From Adlercreutzia murintestinalis (lineage in GTDB: Bacteria > Actinomycetota > Coriobacteriia > Coriobacteriales > Eggerthellaceae), in contig NZ_CALPCC010000003.1 of the NCBI RefSeq assembly GCF_943192905.1, forward strand, positions 1 to 64,000: a stretch of 64,000 bases of DNA. The letters are read 5' to 3'. Under the pieces are notes generated by a model, which worked only from the letters and a program-made list of their open reading frames with translations, did no database searches and was not told the origin of the DNA. Of the stretch, positions 78 through 37,325 are shown piece after piece. Both the position numbers and the translations under genes were made by a program. The stretch's first letter is position 1; the number at the start of each line of letters is the position of its first letter.

Positions 78-1243
78 GGTTAGGCGTGTGGTACTACCTC
101 GATCCTGCCAATGCGGGTGCCATGAAGACAGGGTGGTATCAAGATACGAGCAAGCGCTGGTTTTACTCCAACAGCTCTGGCGCTATGTTGGCGAAACGTT
201 GGATCAAGACGGGCAACACTTGGTACTACGTTATGAGTAATGGTGCTCGTCAGACCGGCTGGCTCTCTTTGGGGGTAGCAACGTATTATCTCAACCCTGC
301 TCAAGCGGGAGCGATGGTTGTTGGCGACTTCAAAGTGTCGAATGTATCCTATAGAGCAGATGCCTCGGGCGCTCTTGTAAAGAACGCTTGGGTTAGCATG
401 GGCGGGAACAAATTGGCTTTCGCTGGATCAAATGGAGCTCTCAATTCTGGTGCCGAGCGTACTTCAGACGGAAAGATCATCATTAAAGATTCGTCAGGTA
501 AGATCCGAACAGGATGGATCAATTTCGGCGGATATCGTTTCTTCGCTGATCCCAGTAAGGGCGGTCGTCTTGCAACCGGCTGGACAACGAGCAATGGTAA
601 GAAATACTATTTTGATTCGAACTATGCACCTCATAAAGGTTGGTTGCTTCTCAATGGTCGTTGGTATTACTTTGACAGCGACGGAGCTATGGCGACTGGG
701 TGGCGCAAGGTAGGTGGTAGCTGGTTTTGGCTGCGCTCGTCAGACGGGGTCATGCTGACAGGGAGCCAGTATGTTGATAATGCATGGAATTATTTCTATG
801 CAAATGGTGCATGGGACGCTACCGCGTCATATATGATGCGTCGGGCTCAGGGCATCTCAAGTAACACCGGATGGCTCATTTTGGTAGATACCTCAGCATG
901 TCGAACCACTGTGTTTAGCCGTAGCAGCAATAGCTGGGTCGTTAATCAGACTTGGTCCTGTTCCCCAGGAGCATATGGCACCCCCACGAAGAAGGGGTAT
1001 TTTACGGTCGGGAGCAGAGGGTATTATTTCGATTCTGGTGCATCACGTTGCTTCTATTGGACCCAGTTCAGCGGCAATTACCTTTTCCATTCGGTGCTCT
1101 ATGCGCGTACGGCCACACCGCAGTATATACGGGATGGACGGTTGGGTATGAATCTTTCTCATGGGTGCGTGCGATTGGATGTTAACTGTGCAAAATGGAT
1201 ATATGACCGTATTCCTTTCGGCACACGCGTCTATACGTATTAG
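2..1243 (+). CDS. Cell-wall-binding repeat protein with C-terminal L,D-transpeptidase domain (5' truncated by window)
   Basis: The frame is open from base 2, so the true start lies left of the window; 413 residues are visible. The first ~280 residues are tandem aromatic/glycine repeats (GW..., WYYFDSDGAM, YYLNPAQAGAM) of the choline/glucan-binding cell-wall repeat family, which anchor proteins to wall polymers. The last ~130 residues form a YkuD domain: an upstream His in YLFHSVLY, then the catalytic SHGCVRLD motif with its Cys near the end. Proteins of this family act outside the membrane and make 3-3 peptidoglycan cross-links or attach proteins to peptidoglycan. The signal peptide would be in the missing part. 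A terminator follows directly. The repeats are partly identical at DNA level, which suggests recent duplication. A second YkuD protein lies at 8770-10509. The domain call is firm; the exact substrate is not known. Confidence 0.9.
   Translation, partial: AKRWIKTGNTWYYVMSNGARQTGWLWLGVWYYLDPANAGAMKTGWYQDTSKRWFYSNSSGAMLAKRWIKTGNTWYYVMSNGARQTGWLSLGVATYYLNPAQAGAMVVGDFKVSNVSYRADASGALVKNAWVSMGGNKLAFAGSNGALNSGAERTSDGKIIIKDSSGKIRTGWINFGGYRFFADPSKGGRLATGWTTSNGKKYYFDSNYAPHKGWLLLNGRWYYFDSDGAMATGWRKVGGSWFWLRSSDGVMLTGSQYVDNAWNYFYANGAWDATASYMMRRAQGISSNTGWLILVDTSACRTTVFSRSSNSWVVNQTWSCSPGAYGTPTKKGYFTVGSRGYYFDSGASRCFYWTQFSGNYLFHSVLYARTATPQYIRDGRLGMNLSHGCVRLDVNCAKWIYDRIPFGTRVYTY
190..266 (+). repeat. Exact 77-bp direct repeat, copy 2
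   Basis: Identical to bases 1-77, in the same reading frame; the copies diverge right after 266. The pair marks one duplicated aromatic repeat unit of the encoded protein. Confidence 0.9.
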
Positions 1244-2506: not shown

Positions 2507-3348
2507 GCGCAGGGGTCGATCTGTTTCAGTTCTGCGATATCTTCTTGCATCTCGGTTATGTTCTTCCAAAGACGCAGGGGCATGAATTGGCGACGCAATT
2601 CAGGATTGTAGCGGGCATCAATGGATACTGCGCGATAGAACGTACGCCATGCTTCTTGCATGGCTACCTCGTTTGCTGAATGATGTGGCAAACGAGATAC
2701 CAGTTCGGCTGCTGAAATTTGTATGAGATGCTGTTGCGCACCATCCCAAACGCCCGCAATGTTATGCGTTTCGTCGAATATGATAAACGGCTGCACGTTG
2801 AACCGTTCTACGAAGTGCCCAAGCACAAGTGGTATGACCGCATGCTTTGGATTAACGTTTGCAAACCATACCTGGATATCATCTCCTTTAAGGTGTTCAA
2901 AGCGCGCGAACTGACGCATGCGCTCGCATTCGTTCTCAACGCTCAAAACGGCCTCAAGGAGATCTGCGACCGCAGGATGCGCTCGATTCGAGAGTGCGCG
3001 CCTTGCATCGGCGTGTTCGTCTATGGCATAGCGGATGAAACGATAGATGATGTATCCCACACGCGGGTCCGATGAGGTGGATGCTTTCGTAATCTGCCAA
3101 AATGTGCGTTTGCCGCAGCGTTTGACAATACCGCGTTGCACGCGGCGCGCGAACATATCGTTTGTGGCAACGTGGTGGATTCGTTGTGAGAGACGTGGCT
3201 GTACGAGCTCGGAAGAGATCACATCGCTGGGATGCTCTTTGCGGGCGTACGCTTCAAACACGGCAGAGAGCAGCCCCTCGAGAGAGCCATCGTAGAGATA
3301 GGCTACCTCGTCGAAGAGGTCTGTGAGGGGGTTTTGCTGAGCGTCCAC
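2503..3348 (-). CDS. TIGR03915-family DNA metabolism protein (DUF4130)
   Basis: A 281-residue protein. The N-terminal YLYDGSLEGLLSAVFEAY and the C-terminal NPELRRQFMPLRLWKNITEM are characteristic of the SAM/DNA-glycosylase-associated DUF4130 family, which is nearly always encoded next to a radical SAM protein of the TIGR03916 family, as here. It starts with GTG at 3348; that G is also the last base of the TAG of the preceding gene, so translation is probably coupled. The pair is predicted to act in DNA modification or repair; the chemistry has not been established to my knowledge. Two SOS-like boxes ahead of the operon fit a DNA-damage role. The stop codon sits on the ssrA promoter. Confidence 0.85.
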   Translation of the reverse strand: MDAQQNPLTDLFDEVAYLYDGSLEGLLSAVFEAYARKEHPSDVISSELVQPRLSQRIHHVATNDMFARRVQRGIVKRCGKRTFWQITKASTSSDPRVGYIIYRFIRYAIDEHADARRALSNRAHPAVADLLEAVLSVENECERMRQFARFEHLKGDDIQVWFANVNPKHAVIPLVLGHFVERFNVQPFIIFDETHNIAGVWDGAQQHLIQISAAELVSRLPHHSANEVAMQEAWRTFYRAVSIDARYNPELRRQFMPLRLWKNITEMQEDIAELKQIDPCA

Positions 3349-4715
3349 TATGACGCCTTCTCAGGAAGGAGCGTGGCGGCCTGTGCGGCATCACTTTGGT
3401 CTTCACTAAAGAGGCTCAGCTGTCCTGCAAGAAGCCGATCGGCGCGTCTGCCGTGCCTGCCACCTTCGATGGGCTTCTTAAGCTGCGCCAAAAGCCACTC
3501 TCTGCTGAAATCTGCTCCGCTGCCACAGTAGGCACCATTGCAGGTGATGAAGTACCGCGCCCGATTGAAGGCGATACCGATCTTGCGCAGTTCCTGTTCA
3601 CCCAAGGTGCTTTGACGACGAGCGCTCACGATCAGTTGCGCCCCGCGTACGCCGATGCCAGGAACGCGCAGGAGCATCTCACGTGAGCAGGTGTTCACCT
3701 CGACCGGGAACAGATCGAGATGGTTTAAGGCCCAGTTTGCCTTTGGGTCGACGCTTTCTTCAAGAAAAGGATGCTCGGCGTCAATGATCTCGTCCACCTC
3801 AAAGCCATAGAATCGAAGCAGCCAATCTGCTTGATAGAGCCTGTGTTCGCGATTGAGTTGGATGCGATCGGTTTGGGGGAGACGGGTATCGGTGACCACG
3901 GGTATGTAGGCGCTGAAGAACACTCGCTTCATGTGCATGCCCTTATACAACGACGCCGCTAGATTCAAGATATGGTGATCGGTTTCAGGGGTGGCTCCGA
4001 TGATCATCTGGGTTGATTGACCGGCGGGAGCGAACGCGCGCGCCGCTCGTTTTGGACGGGCTGCCGATAGATAGGTGGTTTGCCGACGCCTGACCAGTGC
4101 GTGCGTTTCAGCATCCTCTGCGATGGAATCGGCAATTTGACGCATGGGAGCCAAGATGGTCCCCTTGCTCTTCTGTGGGCACAGCAACTGCAGGCTTTTC
4201 TCGGATGGCAACTCCATGTTCACCGAAAGACGATCGGCAAGCAGCCCCAATTCGGAGACAAGTTCAGGTGAGGTGCCTGGCACCGCTTTCGTGTGGATGT
4301 ATCCACGAAAGGCGTATTCGTGACGGAGGATGCGCAGCGTTCGTATCATGAGCTCGCTCGTGTCGTCGGGGCTTCCGATGACACCACTGCTGAGAAAAAG
4401 CCCTTCGATGCAGTTGCGGCGGTAGAATTCGATAGTCAGATCGGCCAACTCACGAGGTTTGAAGCACACGCGCTGTATGGCAGCATTGCTCGCCCGATTC
4501 ACGCAGTAGGCGCAATCGTAGATGCAGGTGTTGGTCATGAGCACTTTCAGCAGCGTGACGCATCGCCCATCAGGGGTGAAGCTATGGCAGCAACCGGCGG
4601 AGCTTGTAGCACCAAGCTGCCCCCGCTTACCAGCACGTGTTACGCCCGAAGAAGTGCACGCTACATCGTATTTTGCAGCATCAGCGAGCACTTCGAGTTT
4701 CTGAGCGATATCCAT
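3348..4715 (-). CDS. Putative DNA modification/repair radical SAM protein (TIGR03916 family)
   Basis: A 455-residue protein. The radical-SAM 4Fe-4S motif CxxxCxxC is seen as CIYDCAYC around residue 70, after the family's typical N-terminus (KLEVLADAAKYDVACTSSG). Near residues 340-390 there is a helix-hairpin-helix (LLRVPGIGVRGAQLIV), a DNA-binding fold, supporting a nucleic acid substrate. ATG at 4715 is preferred because family members begin at this MDIAQKL; a TTG at 4727 is possible but lies inside the operator-like box. It is first in the operon with the DUF4130 gene. Expression is probably repressed by LexA (boxes at 4725-4754). No LexA gene lies in the window. Confidence 0.88.
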   Translation of the reverse strand: MDIAQKLEVLADAAKYDVACTSSGVTRAGKRGQLGATSSAGCCHSFTPDGRCVTLLKVLMTNTCIYDCAYCVNRASNAAIQRVCFKPRELADLTIEFYRRNCIEGLFLSSGVIGSPDDTSELMIRTLRILRHEYAFRGYIHTKAVPGTSPELVSELGLLADRLSVNMELPSEKSLQLLCPQKSKGTILAPMRQIADSIAEDAETHALVRRRQTTYLSAARPKRAARAFAPAGQSTQMIIGATPETDHHILNLAASLYKGMHMKRVFFSAYIPVVTDTRLPQTDRIQLNREHRLYQADWLLRFYGFEVDEIIDAEHPFLEESVDPKANWALNHLDLFPVEVNTCSREMLLRVPGIGVRGAQLIVSARRQSTLGEQELRKIGIAFNRARYFITCNGAYCGSGADFSREWLLAQLKKPIEGGRHGRRADRLLAGQLSLFSEDQSDAAQAATLLPEKAS

Positions 4716-4724
4716 AACGTACCA

Positions 4725-4754
4725 CAAACATTTGTTCTAGCGAATATATGTTTG
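4725..4754 (-). promoter_or_regulatory. Tandem SOS (LexA/DinR-like) boxes
   Basis: Box 1, read on the minus strand at 4738-4725, is AGAACAAATGTTTG. Box 2, at 4741-4754 on the plus strand, is CGAATATATGTTTG. Compared with the Gram-positive DinR consensus CGAACRNRYGTTYC, box 1 differs only at the outermost base on each side and box 2 at two positions. They start 16 bp apart and sit directly in front of the radical SAM gene. Operator function is inferred. Confidence 0.55.
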
Positions 4755-4957
4755 TATAGTATCGCGTGAGGGAGAATAGGTCAAGCATGCTCTCTTGATT
4801 TGGAAGCCATCCGTGCTCTCCACTGTGCAGCGTTCGGTATGGCACGCGAGAGAGCGTCCTCTTTGGTACCCTATGCATAAGGAGTATCCGAGCGAAGAGC
4901 AAGCCCAGAGGGAAAATGCTGCAAATGTTAGAGATCCTGCGGGGTAAGGAGGCGGCC

Positions 4958-5644
4958 ATGGAGGGATATAAGCGCGAGTTCATTGAATTCATGGTAGAGA
5001 GCGATGTTTTGAAGTTCGGCGAGTTCACGTTGAAGAGCGGCCGCACCTCGCCATTCTTCATGAACGCAGGAGCCTACGTGACGGGGGAGCAACTGCATCG
5101 TCTCGGCTTGTATTATGCACAGGCTATCAACGATCGCTTCGGTCTTGATTTCGATGTGGTGTTCGGACCAGCATATAAAGGCATACCGTTAGCGGTGGTA
5201 ACAGCTATGGCCCTTCAGGAGCTCTACGGCAAGGAAGTACGGTATTGCTGCAACCGTAAAGAGGTGAAAGACCATGGGGCCGATGCGGGAAACCTGCTCG
5301 GGTCCGATTTGCATGATGGCGATCGGGTGGTCATGGTGGAGGATGTGACGACTTCGGGCAAGTCGATCGATGAGACCTATCCGCTCTTGAAAGCCGCCGG
5401 TCAGGTCGAGGTGGCAGGCCTTGTTGTATCGCTCAATCGCATGGAGGTTGGCAGAGACGGCGTCAAGACCGCCCAAGAAGAGATCGAGGAACGCTACGGA
5501 TTCCCGGTAGCATCCATCGTTACCATGGCTGAGGTTGTGGAGTGTCTCTACAATCGCGCCATAGAAGGCCGCACCATCATAGACGACGCGGCCAAAGAGG
5601 CGATAGATGCATACTATGCGCGTTATGGCGTGCAGGAATCTTAG
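4958..5644 (+). CDS. pyrE: Orotate phosphoribosyltransferase
   Basis: A 228-residue cytosolic enzyme that joins orotate and PRPP to give orotidine 5'-phosphate in pyrimidine synthesis. The PRPP-binding motif is clear as VVMVEDVTTSGKSI around residues 125-138, and the N-terminal FGEFTLKSGRTSPFFMNAG is typical of PyrE. The start at 4958 has an AAGGAGG (4946-4952) at good distance; an in-frame ATG at 4916 lacks one. The gene is separated from the other pyr genes. Its stop overlaps the stop of the convergent downstream gene by three bases. Confidence 0.95.
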   Translation: MEGYKREFIEFMVESDVLKFGEFTLKSGRTSPFFMNAGAYVTGEQLHRLGLYYAQAINDRFGLDFDVVFGPAYKGIPLAVVTAMALQELYGKEVRYCCNRKEVKDHGADAGNLLGSDLHDGDRVVMVEDVTTSGKSIDETYPLLKAAGQVEVAGLVVSLNRMEVGRDGVKTAQEEIEERYGFPVASIVTMAEVVECLYNRAIEGRTIIDDAAKEAIDAYYARYGVQES

Positions 5645-6285
5645 CGACGCTTTTTGAGGAAGCTCATCTCTTCCCCGATCTCGGCGAAGGTGTCCTTTAG
5701 TTCAGCTGCTACTTGCGCGCCCTCTTTGTAGACGGCGTTGAGGTCGGCCGTGGCTTCTGCCACACCTTCGCGCGTGATCCCAAGATCGAATTCCTCGCCA
5801 TCGCTTGCGCGTACGACTTTCGTGTCCGGTTCGCCAGCGTCGTCGACCACCTCGTACTCGTCCATATCGACATAGTAGTATTCTTGCTCGTTACCATCTT
5901 CGTCGATCAGCACGAACCCTATCTCGTTGTCGTCTTCATCAACAAGATAGGCATGGATGTCTCCGTCTTCGATCTCCATCTCAATGACCTCTTCTTCCAG
6001 GTCATGAGCGCTCTCTATATGGTAGCCTTCTGAATTCTCGACACGTGCGGCTTCTTCAGCCGCCATCGTCTCGTCAACCTCATGTGGGTCATAGCCATCG
6101 TAGTCAGCTTCGTTTTCGGTGATGAAGCTGTCGAAGGCATGGTATTGGTCGCTTTCCTCGGCGTTTTCGCCAAGCAGCTCATCCATATCGCTGGCCACGT
6201 CTTCGATCTCGGTCTCTTCGTCGATCTGTTCAGCCTCGGTCTGACCGACCTCTTCCATCGTTTCTAGCTGCTCATCCATGTTCAT
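5641..6285 (-). CDS. Hypothetical acidic protein
   Basis: A 214-residue protein of no family I recognise. It is extremely acidic (for example EEVIEMEIEDGDIHAYLVDE) and ends in a short basic tail (FLKKRR). The first ~100 residues look disordered; the middle (about 105-160) has alternating hydrophobic residues with EYYYVDMDEYEVVDD and could form beta strands. It has no signal peptide or membrane segment. A good GGAGG precedes ATG 6285. It lies 28 bases downstream of smpB on the same strand and may be the last gene of the peptidase-smpB operon. The stop overlaps that of the convergent pyrE. It could be a chaperone-like or nucleic-acid-mimicking protein, but this is speculation. Confidence 0.75.
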   Translation of the reverse strand: MNMDEQLETMEEVGQTEAEQIDEETEIEDVASDMDELLGENAEESDQYHAFDSFITENEADYDGYDPHEVDETMAAEEAARVENSEGYHIESAHDLEEEVIEMEIEDGDIHAYLVDEDDNEIGFVLIDEDGNEQEYYYVDMDEYEVVDDAGEPDTKVVRASDGEEFDLGITREGVAEATADLNAVYKEGAQVAAELKDTFAEIGEEMSFLKKRR

Positions 6286-6313
6286 GATGACCTCCGCCTC
6301 TTGTCGGTATCCG

Positions 6314-6781
6314 TCAGCGCATCCGATCCTTCAACGCCCGATCTATCTCGCGTTTCACGTCGCGCTCGCGCATGCTGCGACGCTTGTCGTGGAGCTTCTT
6401 GCCCCGCGCGAGCGCTATCTCCACTTTCACGAGCCCATGCTTGTTGAAGTAGAGCTTAAGCGGTACGACCGCGAGGCCCTTCTCCTGCGTTTTCTCTGAG
6501 AGATATCGTATCTGCTTTTTATGCAGAAGAAGCTTGCGGCGACGGTCCGGATCCACATTCGCAATGTTGCCGTTAGCGAAAGGTGATATATGGAAGTTGG
6601 AAAGCCAGACCTCGCCGTTGCGCACGAGGGCAAACGCGTCAGTGAGCTGTGCGTTGTTGTCGCGCAGCGAGCGCACCTCGGTCCCCGTGAGCTGAATGCC
6701 CGCCTCAAAGGTTTCGAGGATCTCGTAATCGTGGAACGCGCGGCGGTTCTTCGCGATGGTGGTATCGTCCCTCTTTGTCAT
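6314..6781 (-). CDS. smpB: SsrA-binding protein SmpB
   Basis: A 155-residue protein (usual length about 150-160) that binds tmRNA and brings it to stalled ribosomes. Recognisable features include FEAGIQLTGTEVRSLRDNNAQLTDAF near residues 24-49, the FHISPFANGNIANVDPDRRRKLLLHK core, and the basic C-terminal tail (KKLHDKRRSMRERDVKREIDRALK) that enters the mRNA channel. It begins eight bases after the stop of the M42 peptidase gene and is in the same operon. Its RNA partner ssrA lies 4 kb away at 2087-2463. Confidence 0.96.
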   Translation of the reverse strand: MTKRDDTTIAKNRRAFHDYEILETFEAGIQLTGTEVRSLRDNNAQLTDAFALVRNGEVWLSNFHISPFANGNIANVDPDRRRKLLLHKKQIRYLSEKTQEKGLAVVPLKLYFNKHGLVKVEIALARGKKLHDKRRSMRERDVKREIDRALKDRMR

Positions 6782-6789
6782 GGCAAGCC

Positions 6790-8259
6790 CTAAAAGCGCG
6801 GTCGCAGGATGTTGTCTTCGGGCATGAGCGCTCCGGTATTGCCCGTTTCCACTTCGTGAATGCCGCCCATATCTGGGATGCTCGTCGGGCTCGTGCTCGC
6901 TTGCGCTGGCATGGTGGCATGTGCGTTCGCGGCCATGCGCTCCTGCGTTTGCTGCTTAGCCTCCTCGGTACGCGCGATGAGCTCTTTCATCTCAGCTGTG
7001 TACTCGACCGAATGCTCGGGTTCCTCCGCTTCAAGAGGATCGTCGTGCAGCAGATCATCATGAGCGGCCTGCTCGAGCGCTTCCTCCTGTTCAAGGGCCA
7101 CCAACAACGCGTCAAGCTCGTTATCGTCGCTGGCATTCTTCGGGATATACGGATCGCCTTCAGCGCGCAAGAACGAGCGGGGCGCCGTCCCATCGATACC
7201 GGGGACGAAGTGGGGCTCTTCTTCCATGTCTAAAGCGAAACGCGCGATCAGGCGTACGGCGTGCTGGATATCGCTGAGCGAGATGACCTCAGTGGGCGTG
7301 TGCATGTAGCGCAGCGGTATGGAGATGAGGCCGGTGGGAATGCCGTCGCGCGCCACCTGGATAGCGCGCGCATCGGTGCCCGTGACGCCGGGTTCTGCCT
7401 CGAGCTGATAGGGGATGCTCTCTGCCTCTGCGGCAGCAACCAGCCGCTCGAACACGACAGGGTTGATATTGGGGCCGCGAGCGATAACCGGTCCGGCGCC
7501 CAGTTTGATATCGCCATACTTCGTCTTATCGATGCCGGGATAATCAGTGGCGTGAGTGACGTCGAAGGCGAGCGCAACATCTGGGTCGATCGAATGGGCG
7601 CTGGTGATGGCACCGCGCGTGCCAATTTCTTCCTGCACCGTTATGGCGGCCGTGAAGTCGCCTTTCGAGCGTCCAGCCGTCGCCAACTCTTCCATGACGC
7701 GACAGGTAACGAATACGCCCACTTTGTCGTCGAACCCACGCGAAACAGCCAGACCGTGCCCGAATCGCTCGAATCCCACCCCGTAGGTGATCGGATCACC
7801 AACATGTATGCGACTTTTCACCTCGTCAGGGGACAGGCCAGTGTCAATGACGAGCTTATCAAGGGGAGTAATGGATTTGCGATCGTCTGGTTCGATCAGA
7901 TGGATGGGCTTGCGTCCCACCACTCCGCGGATGGTGGCGCCCGCTGCATGGATGTCCATGCGCATGCCCGGCAGTATCGCTGCATCTACTCCGCCGATAG
8001 CGGCTACCGAGAGAAATCCTTCATCCGAGATGTAGGTGACCATCAGGCCCACTTCGTCCATGTGCGCTGAGAGCATCAAGGTAGGCCCTGACCCTTGACC
8101 ATCGAGGGTAGCATGCACCGAGCCCATGGTGTCGGTTTCCACCCAATCGGCTACCTCGGAGAATCTTGCGCGCACGAGTTCGGCCACGCGCTCCTCGCTG
8201 CCGGTTGCAGAAGGTGTTTCTACGAGCCGCTTCAAGAACCTGAGTTGCTGCTTTTTCAT
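6790..8259 (-). CDS. M42-family metallo-aminopeptidase with long acidic C-terminal extension
   Basis: A 489-residue protein. The first ~345 residues are a complete M42 (glutamyl aminopeptidase/endoglucanase M-like) enzyme: LSAHMDEVG (first metal His/Asp), SRGFDDKVG (bridging Asp), QEEIGTRGA (general base Glu), FDVTHATDYPG (metal Asp) and MHTPTEV (metal His). The family is normally about 340-370 residues; here ~140 additional residues follow that are acidic, then Gln/Ala/Thr-rich, and look largely disordered. AGGAGG lies nine bases before ATG 8259 and overlaps the stop of the upstream small gene. Cytosolic peptide degradation is the family role. The function of the tail is not known. Confidence 0.9.
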   Translation of the reverse strand: MKKQQLRFLKRLVETPSATGSEERVAELVRARFSEVADWVETDTMGSVHATLDGQGSGPTLMLSAHMDEVGLMVTYISDEGFLSVAAIGGVDAAILPGMRMDIHAAGATIRGVVGRKPIHLIEPDDRKSITPLDKLVIDTGLSPDEVKSRIHVGDPITYGVGFERFGHGLAVSRGFDDKVGVFVTCRVMEELATAGRSKGDFTAAITVQEEIGTRGAITSAHSIDPDVALAFDVTHATDYPGIDKTKYGDIKLGAGPVIARGPNINPVVFERLVAAAEAESIPYQLEAEPGVTGTDARAIQVARDGIPTGLISIPLRYMHTPTEVISLSDIQHAVRLIARFALDMEEEPHFVPGIDGTAPRSFLRAEGDPYIPKNASDDNELDALLVALEQEEALEQAAHDDLLHDDPLEAEEPEHSVEYTAEMKELIARTEEAKQQTQERMAANAHATMPAQASTSPTSIPDMGGIHEVETGNTGALMPEDNILRPRF

Positions 8260-33974: not shown

Positions 33975-34002
33975 TTGCGTTGATGCGGAAACATGGTATC
34001 AT
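33975..34002 (+). promoter_or_regulatory. Promoter of the tryptophan attenuator/ECF operon
   Basis: TTGCGT (33975-33980), a 16-base spacer, then TATCAT (33997-34002) with a TGG extended -10 before it. The predicted start near 34009 gives a leader of about 220 bases before the first structural gene. Confidence 0.65.
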
Positions 34003-34036
34003 CGCTTCCAGCTTGCATATCCGAGAAGGAGATAGC

Positions 34037-34117
34037 TTGATCAACCTGCATACACATATCCTCGGCGCGGGCGCTGCGGCGTTCGCTGGTGCATGGTGGT
34101 GGAACAAGCCCGAATAA
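34037..34117 (+). CDS. Tryptophan attenuator leader peptide
   Basis: A 26-codon reading frame starting with TTG, five bases after AAGGAG (34026-34031). The peptide is Leu/Met-INLHTHILGAGAAAFAGA, then W-W-W (34094-34102), then NKPE and TAA. Three consecutive TGG codons, rare in proteins, close to the end of a short frame and just before a terminator, are the hallmark of trp leader peptides such as trpL. Ribosome stalling at these codons would set the fold of the following RNA. It lies between recN and the ECF operon and has no other plausible role. Confidence 0.82.
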   Translation: MINLHTHILGAGAAAFAGAWWWNKPE

Positions 34118-34182
34118 GACGGATCATCCAAGCTCTGGCTTTCCTGCATGCAAGCCCTCGGTGATCCGCCGGGGGCTTTTTC
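34101..34182 (+). promoter_or_regulatory. Trp attenuator with alternative RNA folds
   Basis: Four alternating segments are readable. Segment 1: GGAACAAGCC (34101-34110, overlapping the third Trp codon). Segment 2: GGCTTTCC (34137-34144). Segment 3: AAGCCCTCGG (34152-34161). Segment 4: CCGCCGGGGGCTT (34166-34178). 1:2 and 3:4 form the terminating state. 2:3 (GGCTT with AAGCC), extended by an outer 8-bp helix of 34121-34128 with 34160-34167 (one G-U), forms the antiterminator and removes bases needed for the terminator. Stalling at the Trp codons leaves 34121 onward free; a ribosome at the stop codon covers it. Confidence 0.78.
34152..34182 (+). terminator. Conditional terminator of the Trp attenuator
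   Basis: AAGCCC (34152-34157) pairs with GGGCTT (34173-34178) and CGG (34159-34161) with CCG (34166-34168), with an internal loop, followed by T's through 34181. It stands 47 bases before the S-component start. Confidence 0.8.
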
Positions 34183-34228
34183 ATGGGCTTGCACCACGTA
34201 TGCCAAGATGTGACGGAAAGGAATCATC

Positions 34229-34843
34229 ATGAACGACGAGACGATGCAAGCACAGCCAACCGCCCCGCAAGGCGCTCCGCGCACCAGCGCTCCTGCTGCA
34301 CCGAAGCGCACCGTGCAGGCGCAGGCAAGCAACGGGCTTTCGGTGCGCGACTTGATTTTGATAGCGGTGCTGCTGGCAGCAGGCGCCGTGTTGAAACTGA
34401 CCGTGTCCTCATTTCTGAGCTTCGGTGGCATGAAGCCGAACTTCATGATCGCCATGTATTGCCTTGCCATTATCCTGGTGCGTCCCAATGTGGGACAAGC
34501 GGCCATTATCGGGTTGCTCACTGGTCTGATCAGCCAGATTCCCATGCTGAACGCAACGCCCTGGGTCAACATCGCATCTGAGACGCTTGGCGCAACGGTG
34601 TGCGGGCTCTTGATCCTGATCCCTCTCAAGGTGGGCAAGCTCGATCTGAATCCACTGGTGAGCACCTTCTTGTCCACCCTGGTCTCCGGTTACACCTTCG
34701 CTCTTATCGTCGGCCTGATGAATGGTCTGGCCATCGGCGCTATCATGATCACCTACGCCATAATGGTATTCGGCACCGCTTTGGTGAACTGCATCCTGGT
34801 GGAGATACTGGCGCTGCCGCTCTCCCGGGTGCTGAAACGCTGA
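34229..34843 (+). CDS. ECF transporter S component, TrpP-like (predicted tryptophan)
   Basis: A 204-residue membrane protein with an N-terminal ~35-residue Ala/Pro/Gln-rich cytosolic tail and about five to six spans from residue 38 on. The GMKPNFMIAMYCLAIIL segment (about 70-86) resembles the GMKPDF region remembered for Bacillus TrpP, and small size plus neighbours (two ATPases and EcfT) identify it as the substrate-binding S subunit of an energy-coupling factor importer. Tryptophan is predicted from this similarity together with the WWW leader peptide in front; the two lines agree. AAAGGAATC precedes the ATG. Confidence 0.8.
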   Translation: MNDETMQAQPTAPQGAPRTSAPAAPKRTVQAQASNGLSVRDLILIAVLLAAGAVLKLTVSSFLSFGGMKPNFMIAMYCLAIILVRPNVGQAAIIGLLTGLISQIPMLNATPWVNIASETLGATVCGLLILIPLKVGKLDLNPLVSTFLSTLVSGYTFALIVGLMNGLAIGAIMITYAIMVFGTALVNCILVEILALPLSRVLKR

Positions 34844-34877
34844 TGAGCGTATTGGGACAGACGACAGGAAATCACAG

Positions 34878-35717
34878 ATGCTCTGCCTGAAAGACTTTTC
34901 ATTCAAATACGCTGAAAGCGATCGGTTCGCCTTGCGCGATATCAATCTGGCAGTGCCGGATGGATGCTTCGTCGGCATCACGGGCGCGGCCGGGTCGGGC
35001 AAGTCTACGTTGACGTATGCGATGAACGGCATCATCCCACATTGCTATCCGGGAGATTTCTTCGGAAGCGTCATCGTGGGAAGCCTGGATACCGTTGATG
35101 CGAGCCTAACCGATATCTCGCGTCTGGTCGGCAGCGTCTGCCAAGACATCGATTCTCAGATGGTTGCCTCCATCGTGGAAGATGAGGTGCTCTACGGCCT
35201 TGAGAACTTCGGTGTGCGCACAGACGAAGTGGAAGTGCGTCTGACCGATGCGCTTGAGGCGATGGGCATTGCCGATCTGCGCACGCGCACCATCGACTCG
35301 CTCTCGGGGGGTCAAAAGCAGAAGGTGGCGCTCGCGTCAATTATCGCGTTGCGTCCGAAGGTGCTGCTCTTGGATGAGCCGACCGCTGAACTCGACCCTG
35401 CCAGTTCGCTCGCGGTCTTTGAATTGTTACGTGAATACGCTCACCATCATCAGACGACGGTGATCGTGGTGGAGCAGAAGATCGCGCTGCTTGCCGATTT
35501 TGCCGACAAGCTGGTCATCGTCGAGAAGGGCCGCATCCGCTTCGATGGCGCGCCCGCAGACGTGCTGGCGCATTCTGAGGAACTGCTCGAGATCGGGGTG
35601 AACGTGCCACGGGCGACGAGCTTGGTGAACGGGCTTCGCCAACGCGGGCTCTACCGGGGCAGCGCTGTGCGCGATGTGGATGAGGCCGTGGCGGTATGCG
35701 AGGAGGTGCTCGCATGA
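34878..35717 (+). CDS. ECF transporter ATPase (EcfA, first)
   Basis: A 279-residue ABC ATPase. Walker A GAAGSGKST (about 39-47), signature LSGGQKQKVALAS (about 140-152), Walker B VLLLDEPTAELDP and His-switch region IVVEQK, with Gln where a His is common. It energises the S component from the cytoplasmic side together with the second ATPase and EcfT. It starts 35 bases after the S gene and overlaps the next gene by four bases (ATGA). Confidence 0.92.
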   Translation: MLCLKDFSFKYAESDRFALRDINLAVPDGCFVGITGAAGSGKSTLTYAMNGIIPHCYPGDFFGSVIVGSLDTVDASLTDISRLVGSVCQDIDSQMVASIVEDEVLYGLENFGVRTDEVEVRLTDALEAMGIADLRTRTIDSLSGGQKQKVALASIIALRPKVLLLDEPTAELDPASSLAVFELLREYAHHHQTTVIVVEQKIALLADFADKLVIVEKGRIRFDGAPADVLAHSEELLEIGVNVPRATSLVNGLRQRGLYRGSAVRDVDEAVAVCEEVLA

Positions 35718-36562
35718 TCGAGTTCAAAGCGGTGAGCGCTAGTTATGACGACGAGATGCCGGTGCTCAAGGACGTCTCCTTCACCATCGACGATGGCGAT
35801 TTCGTGGCCTTCGTGGGAACGAACGGCGCAGGCAAATCAACCACCATGCGCCTGATGAACGGGTTGTTGAAACCCACGGCAGGCGAGGTGCTGATAGACG
35901 GGGTGCCCACCACGCAGCTCAAGACGAGCCAGCTTGCCGCACAGGTGGGATTCCTCTTCCAGAATCCGGATCGACAGATATGCTGCAACACGGTGCGCGA
36001 TGAGCTGCTGTTCGGCTTTCGGGCGCAAGGGCGCGCTGATGCGCATGCTGAGGCGCGGGTGGATGCAATCATCGAGCAGTTCGGCTTCGATGCGGATGCC
36101 GAGCCGTTTCTACTGAACCGAGGAACACGCCAGCTATTGGCCTTGGCTTCCATCATCGTGATGGAGACGCCGTATGTGGTGTTGGACGAACCGACCACTG
36201 GTCTTGATTTTCGCGAGTGCGCGAAAGTGATGGACATCATCGCGCAGCTGCATGCGCACGGCACCACGGTGATCATGGTATGCCACGATATGGAAGTGGT
36301 TGGCGACTACGCGCAGCGCGTGATCGCCATGACGGCGGGGCGCGTGGTGGCCGATGGACCCACGTTCCAGGTGCTTTGTGATAGGAGCGCGCTTGATGCG
36401 ACGCACTTGCTCGCACCTCAGATACCTCAAATAAGCATGGCGTTGGTAGAGAACGATCCGGCGCGTGCCGATACGGCGCTCGCGCGTGCGAATACGGTCG
36501 ATGAGATGCTGGATGCTCTCCAGGCGCAGGAAGGAGCGATGAGCTGTGGCGAAGTTTCTTGA
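35714..36562 (+). CDS. ECF transporter ATPase (EcfA', second) with degenerate signature
   Basis: A 282-residue ABC ATPase. Walker A GTNGAGKST (about 38-46) and Walker B YVVLDEPTTGLD are intact, and CHDME holds the His switch, but the signature is LNRGTRQLLALAS instead of LSGGQ. In the heterodimer this sequence faces the Walker A of the first ATPase, so one of two ATP sites may be weak. The start at 35714 is supported by GAGGAGGTG upstream and the overlap with the stop of the first ATPase. The end overlaps the EcfT start by 17 bases. Confidence 0.9.
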   Translation: MIEFKAVSASYDDEMPVLKDVSFTIDDGDFVAFVGTNGAGKSTTMRLMNGLLKPTAGEVLIDGVPTTQLKTSQLAAQVGFLFQNPDRQICCNTVRDELLFGFRAQGRADAHAEARVDAIIEQFGFDADAEPFLLNRGTRQLLALASIIVMETPYVVLDEPTTGLDFRECAKVMDIIAQLHAHGTTVIMVCHDMEVVGDYAQRVIAMTAGRVVADGPTFQVLCDRSALDATHLLAPQIPQISMALVENDPARADTALARANTVDEMLDALQAQEGAMSCGEVS

Positions 36563-37325
36563 ATATGTGCCAGGCGAGAGCTTCCTGCACCGCATGAATC
36601 CGGTCGTCAAGGTGCTGTGCGCGCTCTTGATATCCATCTCGTGCTTTTGCACGGGCAATCTGATCTTCCTTGGTGTGGTGCTGGTGATGGATTTTGCGCT
36701 GGCGGCCAGTTGCACCATGATGCGCCAAGCAGCAGGATTGGCCAGGGCGATCGCCATCTTCTCCATCCTATTGGCGTTGATCGCGCTTTTGACCACGCCG
36801 ACCGGCCCGCAGTTGGTGGCGCTGCCGTGGGGCTATCTTGGATGGGGGTCGGTGGTGGCGGCCATCACGGTGGTCGTTCGTTTGGTCGCGTGTGCTATTC
36901 CACTGTTCTTGGTGATGTATGTCACGCAGATGAGCGACCTTGCCAATGCCTTCTGCAAGATCGTGCATGTGCCGTACAAATACGCCTTCACGTTCACGAG
37001 CGCCGTGCATTTCATCCCGGTGTTCATGAACGATATGTCGGGCATCATGGAAGCGCAGACTGCGCGTGGCGTGGAGTTCGATGGCGGTGCGCTGAAACGG
37101 ATACGCTTGATGGTTCCCCTCTGCGTGCCGCTGCTCATCAGTAGCGTTCGCAAGACGAATTCGGCGGCCATTGCAGCCGAGGTGCGCGGCTTCAACCTGC
37201 GCACCTGCGAGAGCGGCTTCAAGGAATACCCGTTCGCGAGGCTTGATGCGGGAGCGATCGTTGCTTGCGTGGCATTGGTAGCTGCCTCCATCGTGGTGAG
37301 CATGCTGGTTCCGCCGCTGTTCTGA
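36546..37325 (+). CDS. ECF transporter transmembrane component EcfT
   Basis: A 259-residue membrane protein with spans near residues 18-40, 60-85, 90-120 and at the C-terminus (about 230-258). The two coupling-helix motifs of EcfT (Ala-Arg-Gly type) are seen as TARGVEFDG (about 172-180) and VRGFNLR (about 212-218). It starts with GTG, within the previous gene, behind AAGGAG. It completes a full group I-like ECF module (S, A, A', T) in one operon, apparently dedicated to the TrpP-like S subunit. Confidence 0.92.
   Translation: MAKFLEYVPGESFLHRMNPVVKVLCALLISISCFCTGNLIFLGVVLVMDFALAASCTMMRQAAGLARAIAIFSILLALIALLTTPTGPQLVALPWGYLGWGSVVAAITVVVRLVACAIPLFLVMYVTQMSDLANAFCKIVHVPYKYAFTFTSAVHFIPVFMNDMSGIMEAQTARGVEFDGGALKRIRLMVPLCVPLLISSVRKTNSAAIAAEVRGFNLRTCESGFKEYPFARLDAGAIVACVALVAASIVVSMLVPPLF

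Follow-up and report, generated by a model that had tools for sequence, protein, structure and literature searches.

Introduction

Leader-peptide tryptophan (Trp) attenuators are known from the trp operons of Corynebacterium and Streptomyces and from Streptomyces trpS, in a survey in which Coriobacteria are not mentioned (PMC1262725). In Bacillus subtilis, trpP is regulated at the level of translation by TRAP (PMC11255114), and Trp T-boxes have been described upstream of transporter genes (PMC2494555), as for trpX of Streptococcus suis (PMC9382623). For histidine genes and transporters of Gram-positive bacteria, an exchange of T-boxes, attenuators and repressors has been reported (PMC9413887). 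In this work, we analyzed a stretch of 64,000 nucleotides (nt) from Adlercreutzia murintestinalis (GCF_943192905.1, contig NZ_CALPCC010000003.1, positions 1 to 64,000 of the forward strand), hereafter the window, in which a short leader open reading frame (ORF) with three consecutive Trp codons (WWW) precedes an operon for an energy-coupling factor (ECF) importer. Judging from the sequence, the bacterium is a probable Trp auxotroph, whose dedicated ECF tryptophan importer (TrpP-EcfA-EcfA'-EcfT) is very probably under the control of a ribosome-mediated attenuator sensing charged tRNA-Trp.

The locus resembles the actinobacterial trp attenuators (PMC1262725) and Escherichia coli trpL in its short leader ORF, its tandem UGG codons (two or three) and its alternative antiterminator and terminator hairpins. 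It differs from them in its target, an ECF importer operon (along with trpB2) in genomes that yielded neither trpA nor trpC, and in its architecture, which has no conserved 1:2 helix and an antiterminator strand that lies past the stop codon, its pairing reaching into the terminator loop. TrpP (YhaG) of B. subtilis is of the same S-component family (PF17099), to which the S protein has a profile match above cut-off, but the control here is by a leader peptide or a T-box instead of TRAP, and the operon holds its own A, A' and T genes. Trp T-box leaders before transporters share the tRNA-Trp charging signal and the Trp transporter as target, yet a T-box binds the tRNA directly and the window genus has none before trpP. 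Regulators swapped at one target, transporters included, are also the feature in common with the histidine case (PMC9413887), which concerns histidine in Firmicutes, whereas here tryptophan in Coriobacteriia is concerned, and the orthologues bear T-boxes or leaders of two designs. No report of the combination seen here was found in searches of an open-access library.

Results

A Trp-codon leader with two alternative helices

The leader ORF LINLHTHILGAGAAAFAGAWWWNKPE (34037-34117, plus strand, as are all the features of this locus) starts with TTG at 34037, comprises 26 codons and ends with the TAA stop at 34115-34117. The three consecutive codons TGG TGG TGG, the proposed stall site, lie at 34094-34102, and WWW is found in every leader of the same type. 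Upstream, a Shine-Dalgarno motif AAGGAG (34026-34031) and a probable promoter TTGCGT-16-TATCAT (33975-34002; -35 at 33975-33980, -10 at 33997-34002) were read directly from the sequence; GGAG or AAGG is also present 5' of the leader in L002, L003 and L160, and the TTG-16-TA..AT arrangement is readable in all three members of the genus (L002 and L003 included). With the criteria used, this leader was the single case of a short ORF with WWW and a Shine-Dalgarno motif on both strands of the window (128 kb). The antiterminator 5' strand CGGATCATC (34120-34128) starts 2 nt past the stop codon, and its partner GGTGATCCG (34160-34168) corresponds to the inner end of the terminator upstream arm plus the loop. 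The intrinsic terminator AAGCCCTCGG-TGATCCG-CCGGGGGCTT (34152-34181; stem 34152-34161/34169-34178, U-tract 34177-34181) has a calculated free energy of -20.6 kcal/mol. Thus, the promoter, the AAGGAG motif, the 26-codon frame with its Trp codons and the terminator of the original prediction were all recovered where it had put them, with the U-tract read here as ending at 34181.

The leader is conserved throughout the genus (three genomes); in the other two it stands at the homologous position, and its peptide differs but retains the AxAWWW core. Homologous leaders stand in G001 and G002 and also before trpB2; in the same place as the window leader, the other two genomes of the genus carry LIDANAHILSASASAFAGAWWWSKPE and a leader ending in AFACAWWWHKSR. 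Pairing was counted over seven leaders of the window type from five genomes, namely the trpP leaders of the genus, L187, L188, L160 and L161. In these, the antiterminator retains 9/9 pairs (100% of cells), with a compensatory change from C-G to U-A in three leaders, and the terminator 10/10 pairs (100% of cells), two of them with a compensatory change; sliding the register by 1-3 columns lowers pairing to 23-68% for the antiterminator and to 39-77% for the terminator. Furthermore, WWW is kept in the seven leaders whereas other leader codons vary, and the stop codon stays a few nt from the antiterminator strand. These named-helix counts constitute our final evidence for the antiterminator, in place of a search by duplex energy, for which the p-values from shuffling were mixed (between 0 and 0.28 across 14 loci). 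The alignment of relatives that had been proposed as a check therefore revealed conserved Trp codons and stems, with compensatory changes in both helices.

The original prediction had described four alternating AAGCC/GGCTT segments giving mutually exclusive hairpins, helped by an outer 8-bp helix. The segments are present (AAGCC at 34106-34110 and 34152-34156, GGCTT at 34137-34141 and 34174-34178), but they are not conserved, their inner pairings being kept in 73% of cells in three relatives, no better than in shuffles. The outer helix GGATCATC/GGTGATCC (34121-34128 with 34160-34167) is also present, and one further base pair (34120 with 34168) extends it to 9 bp; since it is paired in 100% of cells, we regard it as the antiterminator and not as a helper. 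The four-segment scheme should consequently be replaced by a single predicted outer antiterminator helix.

The S component and its ECF module

The first gene behind the terminator (34229-34843) encodes a protein of 204 amino acids whose core (residues 38-204) scores 34.0 bits against the Pfam family TrpP (PF17099; cut-off 27.2). No Pfam TrpP match was reported for the full-length protein; the match appears once the low-complexity N-terminus is left off. For the orthologues from the other two members of the genus, the scores are 37.3 and 36.6 bits, and PF17099 is matched by 15 of 27 relatives. In an AlphaFold model of the protein (mean pLDDT 85.7), the 20 best matches among solved structures were ECF-type transport components, nearly all of them S components, the best with a Z of 16.4 and 3.0 Å over 162 residues; a sequence search of solved structures gave no match at E up to 10. 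Because Foldseek alone yielded E-values above 0.1, the family assignment is carried by the sequence profile, with the fold as support. Profile and fold support membership in the TrpP family of ECF S components, as had been proposed, and the family together with the regulation points to tryptophan as the substrate.

The genes that follow encode two ECF ATPases with PF00005 matches, A (34878-35717; TIGR04520, E 5e-65) and A' (35714-36562; TIGR04521, E 7e-63), and an ECF transmembrane T component of the CbiQ/EcfT family (36546-37325; PF02361, E 2.7e-24). The order S-A-A'-T is conserved, A, A' and T following S in every named relative with a long enough contig, and order and profile matches together bear out the earlier reading of these four genes as an importer. 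A second EcfT gene of the window genome adjoins rplQ, and the module at the window locus is therefore most likely dedicated to its S component, a group I layout (S, A, A' and T together), in agreement with the original prediction.

A second copy of the leader before trpB2

The window genome contains a second WWW attenuator, with leader LTNLHAQIELTSARVACAGAWWWYSRI, before trpB2 (L188, G000:C20, about 17.5-19.0 kb, minus strand). Its hairpins are nearly identical to those before trpP, and its target is a TrpB-like enzyme of the trpB2 type according to NCBIfam. G001 likewise carries this leader, hairpins included, before trpB2 (L187). In two metagenome-assembled genomes (MAGs) of another family of the order (L160 and L161), one leader ending in ALAGAWWWRSRIS precedes an operon of trpB2, a TrpP::EcfA fusion, A' and T (in L161, the leader, trpB2, TrpP::EcfA, EcfA' and EcfT occupy 3270-8150). 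Neither L001 nor L002 matched Trp_leader (RF00513) or any other Rfam amino-acid leader model, with E-values of up to 1 allowed. The WWW leader region of L161 (3333-3460) gave a weak Rfam Leu_leader match (26.6 bits, cut-off 50), probably due to a shared leader-terminator layout.

T-boxes and WWW leaders across TrpP loci

We tabulated 89 TrpP loci, mostly from the order, plus two labelled Clostridiales/Lachnospiraceae; the sample was taken among the matches with the best scores and excludes loci truncated at a contig end. A T-box core was present in 52 of them, a WWW leader directly upstream in 35, and a WWW leader before an upstream trpB2 in 2; none had both regulators or neither. L006 and L112, considered as loci with neither, were rejected as such, the WWW leader being located upstream of trpB2. 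The T-boxes were missed by Rfam at its gathering score and were found in E-value mode; the specifier is UGG in 71/71 alignable T-boxes, a set that includes named loci duplicating some others. A TGG within GAGTATCTGGACC had been considered as the specifier, but its variability spoke against it; in the Rfam alignment, the specifier falls at AAAUGG. These UGG T-boxes indicate that trpP is under tRNA-Trp control elsewhere, and the assignment of tryptophan as substrate is supported by the fact that most relatives carry such a T-box in the same place and that the same leader precedes trpB2.

Other loci display a second WWW design (NWWWR.....GR*) that includes a 1:2 helix of 7 bp, in which compensatory changes were seen. 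This design occurs in two large families and, in addition, in three loci that are placed with T-box loci by their S proteins. In the tree of S proteins, monophyly was rejected for all WWW loci taken together (approximately unbiased test, p 2.7e-17) and for the hosts of this second design (p 0.017), while it was not rejected for the hosts of leaders of the window type (p 0.52); a grouping of the window genus with the main WWW clade was borderline (p 0.06). According to these tests, exchange of the sensor, or its transfer alone or together with its gene, took place more than once. With moderate confidence, we propose that the tRNA-Trp sensor of the importer has been repeatedly exchanged in this order between the T-box and leader-peptide attenuators of two or more designs, the sensed signal being constant, and that the design of the window genus is a reduced, two-structure attenuator with no conserved protector hairpin, copied onto trpP and trpB2 as a small regulon.

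Several observations were made at individual loci. Tandem TrpP paralogues stand behind one WWW leader in L132, L133, L117 and L118, among others (families f4 and f10), and L117 has a sub-threshold fluoride riboswitch match near its trpP locus (714-788, minus strand; 30.5 bits, cut-off 34). L178-L180, MAG contigs labelled Lachnospiraceae/Clostridiales, have TrpP (about 49% identity) behind a UGG T-box, followed by the ECF module in L179 and L180, while L178 ends after S. L023 carries a second T-box above the gathering score (2832-3079, plus strand, 109.3 bits) on the strand opposite to its trpP. In the window genome, a sub-threshold T-box match (L031, G000:C6:85727-85861, minus strand; 56.6 bits, cut-off 93) lies upstream of a dihydroxy-acid dehydratase-like (ilvD) gene, also on the minus strand, and suggests that T-boxes are still in use elsewhere in this genome.

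Proposed mechanism and folding models

From the conserved elements described above, we infer a switch that would operate as follows. When charged tRNA-Trp is scarce, the ribosome translating the leader would stall on the three Trp codons and leave CGGATCATC, just behind the stop codon, free to pair with GGTGATCCG before the downstream arm of the terminator is made, so that the polymerase would read on into the importer genes. When charged tRNA-Trp is plentiful, the ribosome would reach the stop codon and cover CGGATCATC, and the terminator would form. With the second copy of the device before trpB2, the two operons would constitute a Trp regulon. For our models we assumed a ribosome footprint of 12 nt downstream. 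When the ribosome was placed on either of the first two Trp codons and the transcript was ended directly past the terminator loop, the predicted probability of the antiterminator was 0.84-0.999 in the three genomes, and a ribosome modelled on the stop codon masked the antiterminator 5' strand.

Several points weigh against this proposal. In the models, the terminator is favoured at equilibrium in every ribosome state; the comparison of folding energies for 34009-34228 with and without the leading bases, which the original prediction had suggested as a check, was run and proved uninformative, as it cannot discriminate when the terminator always wins. The 220-nt equilibrium fold is also not unusually stable (z -1.15). 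The terminator largely wins at equilibrium as well in E. coli trpL under the same treatment (P 0.84). With the terminator winning at equilibrium, the switch must be kinetic, the choice being made during transcription. In models lacking a ribosome, most transcript lengths likewise favour the antiterminator, with exceptions among the lengths in L001 and L002, so that an untranslated leader may read through; in leaders of the window type, no conserved helix was seen that could shield the antiterminator in the absence of translation. With seven leaders from five genomes, the covariation is built on few independent changes. The promoter is weak by consensus, falling below the threshold of a consensus promoter scan, in which it was not listed. 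Finally, the window genome is 91% complete, and genes absent from it could be missing from the assembly.

Tryptophan physiology of the genus

Neither trpA nor trpC turned up in any of the three genomes of the genus, and the window bacterium seems unable to make tryptophan. Among 60 related genomes, trpA was present in 5/32 with TrpP and in 12/28 without it (Fisher p 0.024, uncorrected for relatedness). The missing trp genes and the rarer trpA fit an importer needed by a Trp auxotroph.

Alternative explanations

A Trp-sensing attenuator could be real and yet control the import of an indole compound or another Trp precursor, converted to tryptophan by TrpB2. The same leader type does precede trpB2 in the window genome, a TrpB-like enzyme could salvage indole, and trpB2 and the S component share one operon in the two MAGs mentioned above. 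Nevertheless, the S protein falls in the TrpP family, for which a title cited in PMC11255114 describes the B. subtilis gene as one of tryptophan transport, and G002, with no PALP match of trpB2 size, has kept both importer and leader; we thus consider precursor import unlikely. Less probable still is a leader working without any stalling at Trp codons, in which the ORF would be a by-product and the hairpins a constitutive terminator setting a fixed basal level. The dominance of the terminator at equilibrium in all states would suit such a device, which leaves unaccounted for the retention of WWW while the other leader codons change, the stop codon held a few nt from the antiterminator strand, and the replacement of the leader in relatives by UGG T-boxes, that is, tRNA-Trp control of the same gene elsewhere.

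Control by TRAP or by a T-box in the window genus would have precedents in B. subtilis trpP, a TRAP target (PMC11255114), and in the T-boxes of most relatives, but is largely refuted and is the explanation to which we give the least credit. No match to the TRAP family (PF02081) was found in the window genome, at its 91% completeness. Moreover, no T-box stands before trpP in L001-L003, where no core motif occurs within 650 nt upstream; Rfam gave no T-box match at the window locus, and none in L001 or L002 at E up to 1. A leader-peptide attenuator on a tryptophan importer, as originally predicted, is the reading supported by the conserved Trp codons and stems, the TrpP match, the UGG T-boxes of relatives and the occurrence of the same leader before trpB2.

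Implications

For a large group of gut bacteria, whose TrpP-bearing genomes are often without trpA, two independent regulatory readings, the WWW leader and the UGG T-box, fix what an ECF importer family is likely to take up. We also suggest, as an annotation rule, that an ECF S gene preceded by a WWW leader or a UGG T-box be taken as the mark of a Trp importer. In related species, the same gene is served by two RNA sensors that are unrelated to each other but read the same tRNA, which provides a natural comparison, in which the differences between T-box and ribosome-stall control in sensitivity, speed and dependence on translation become testable.

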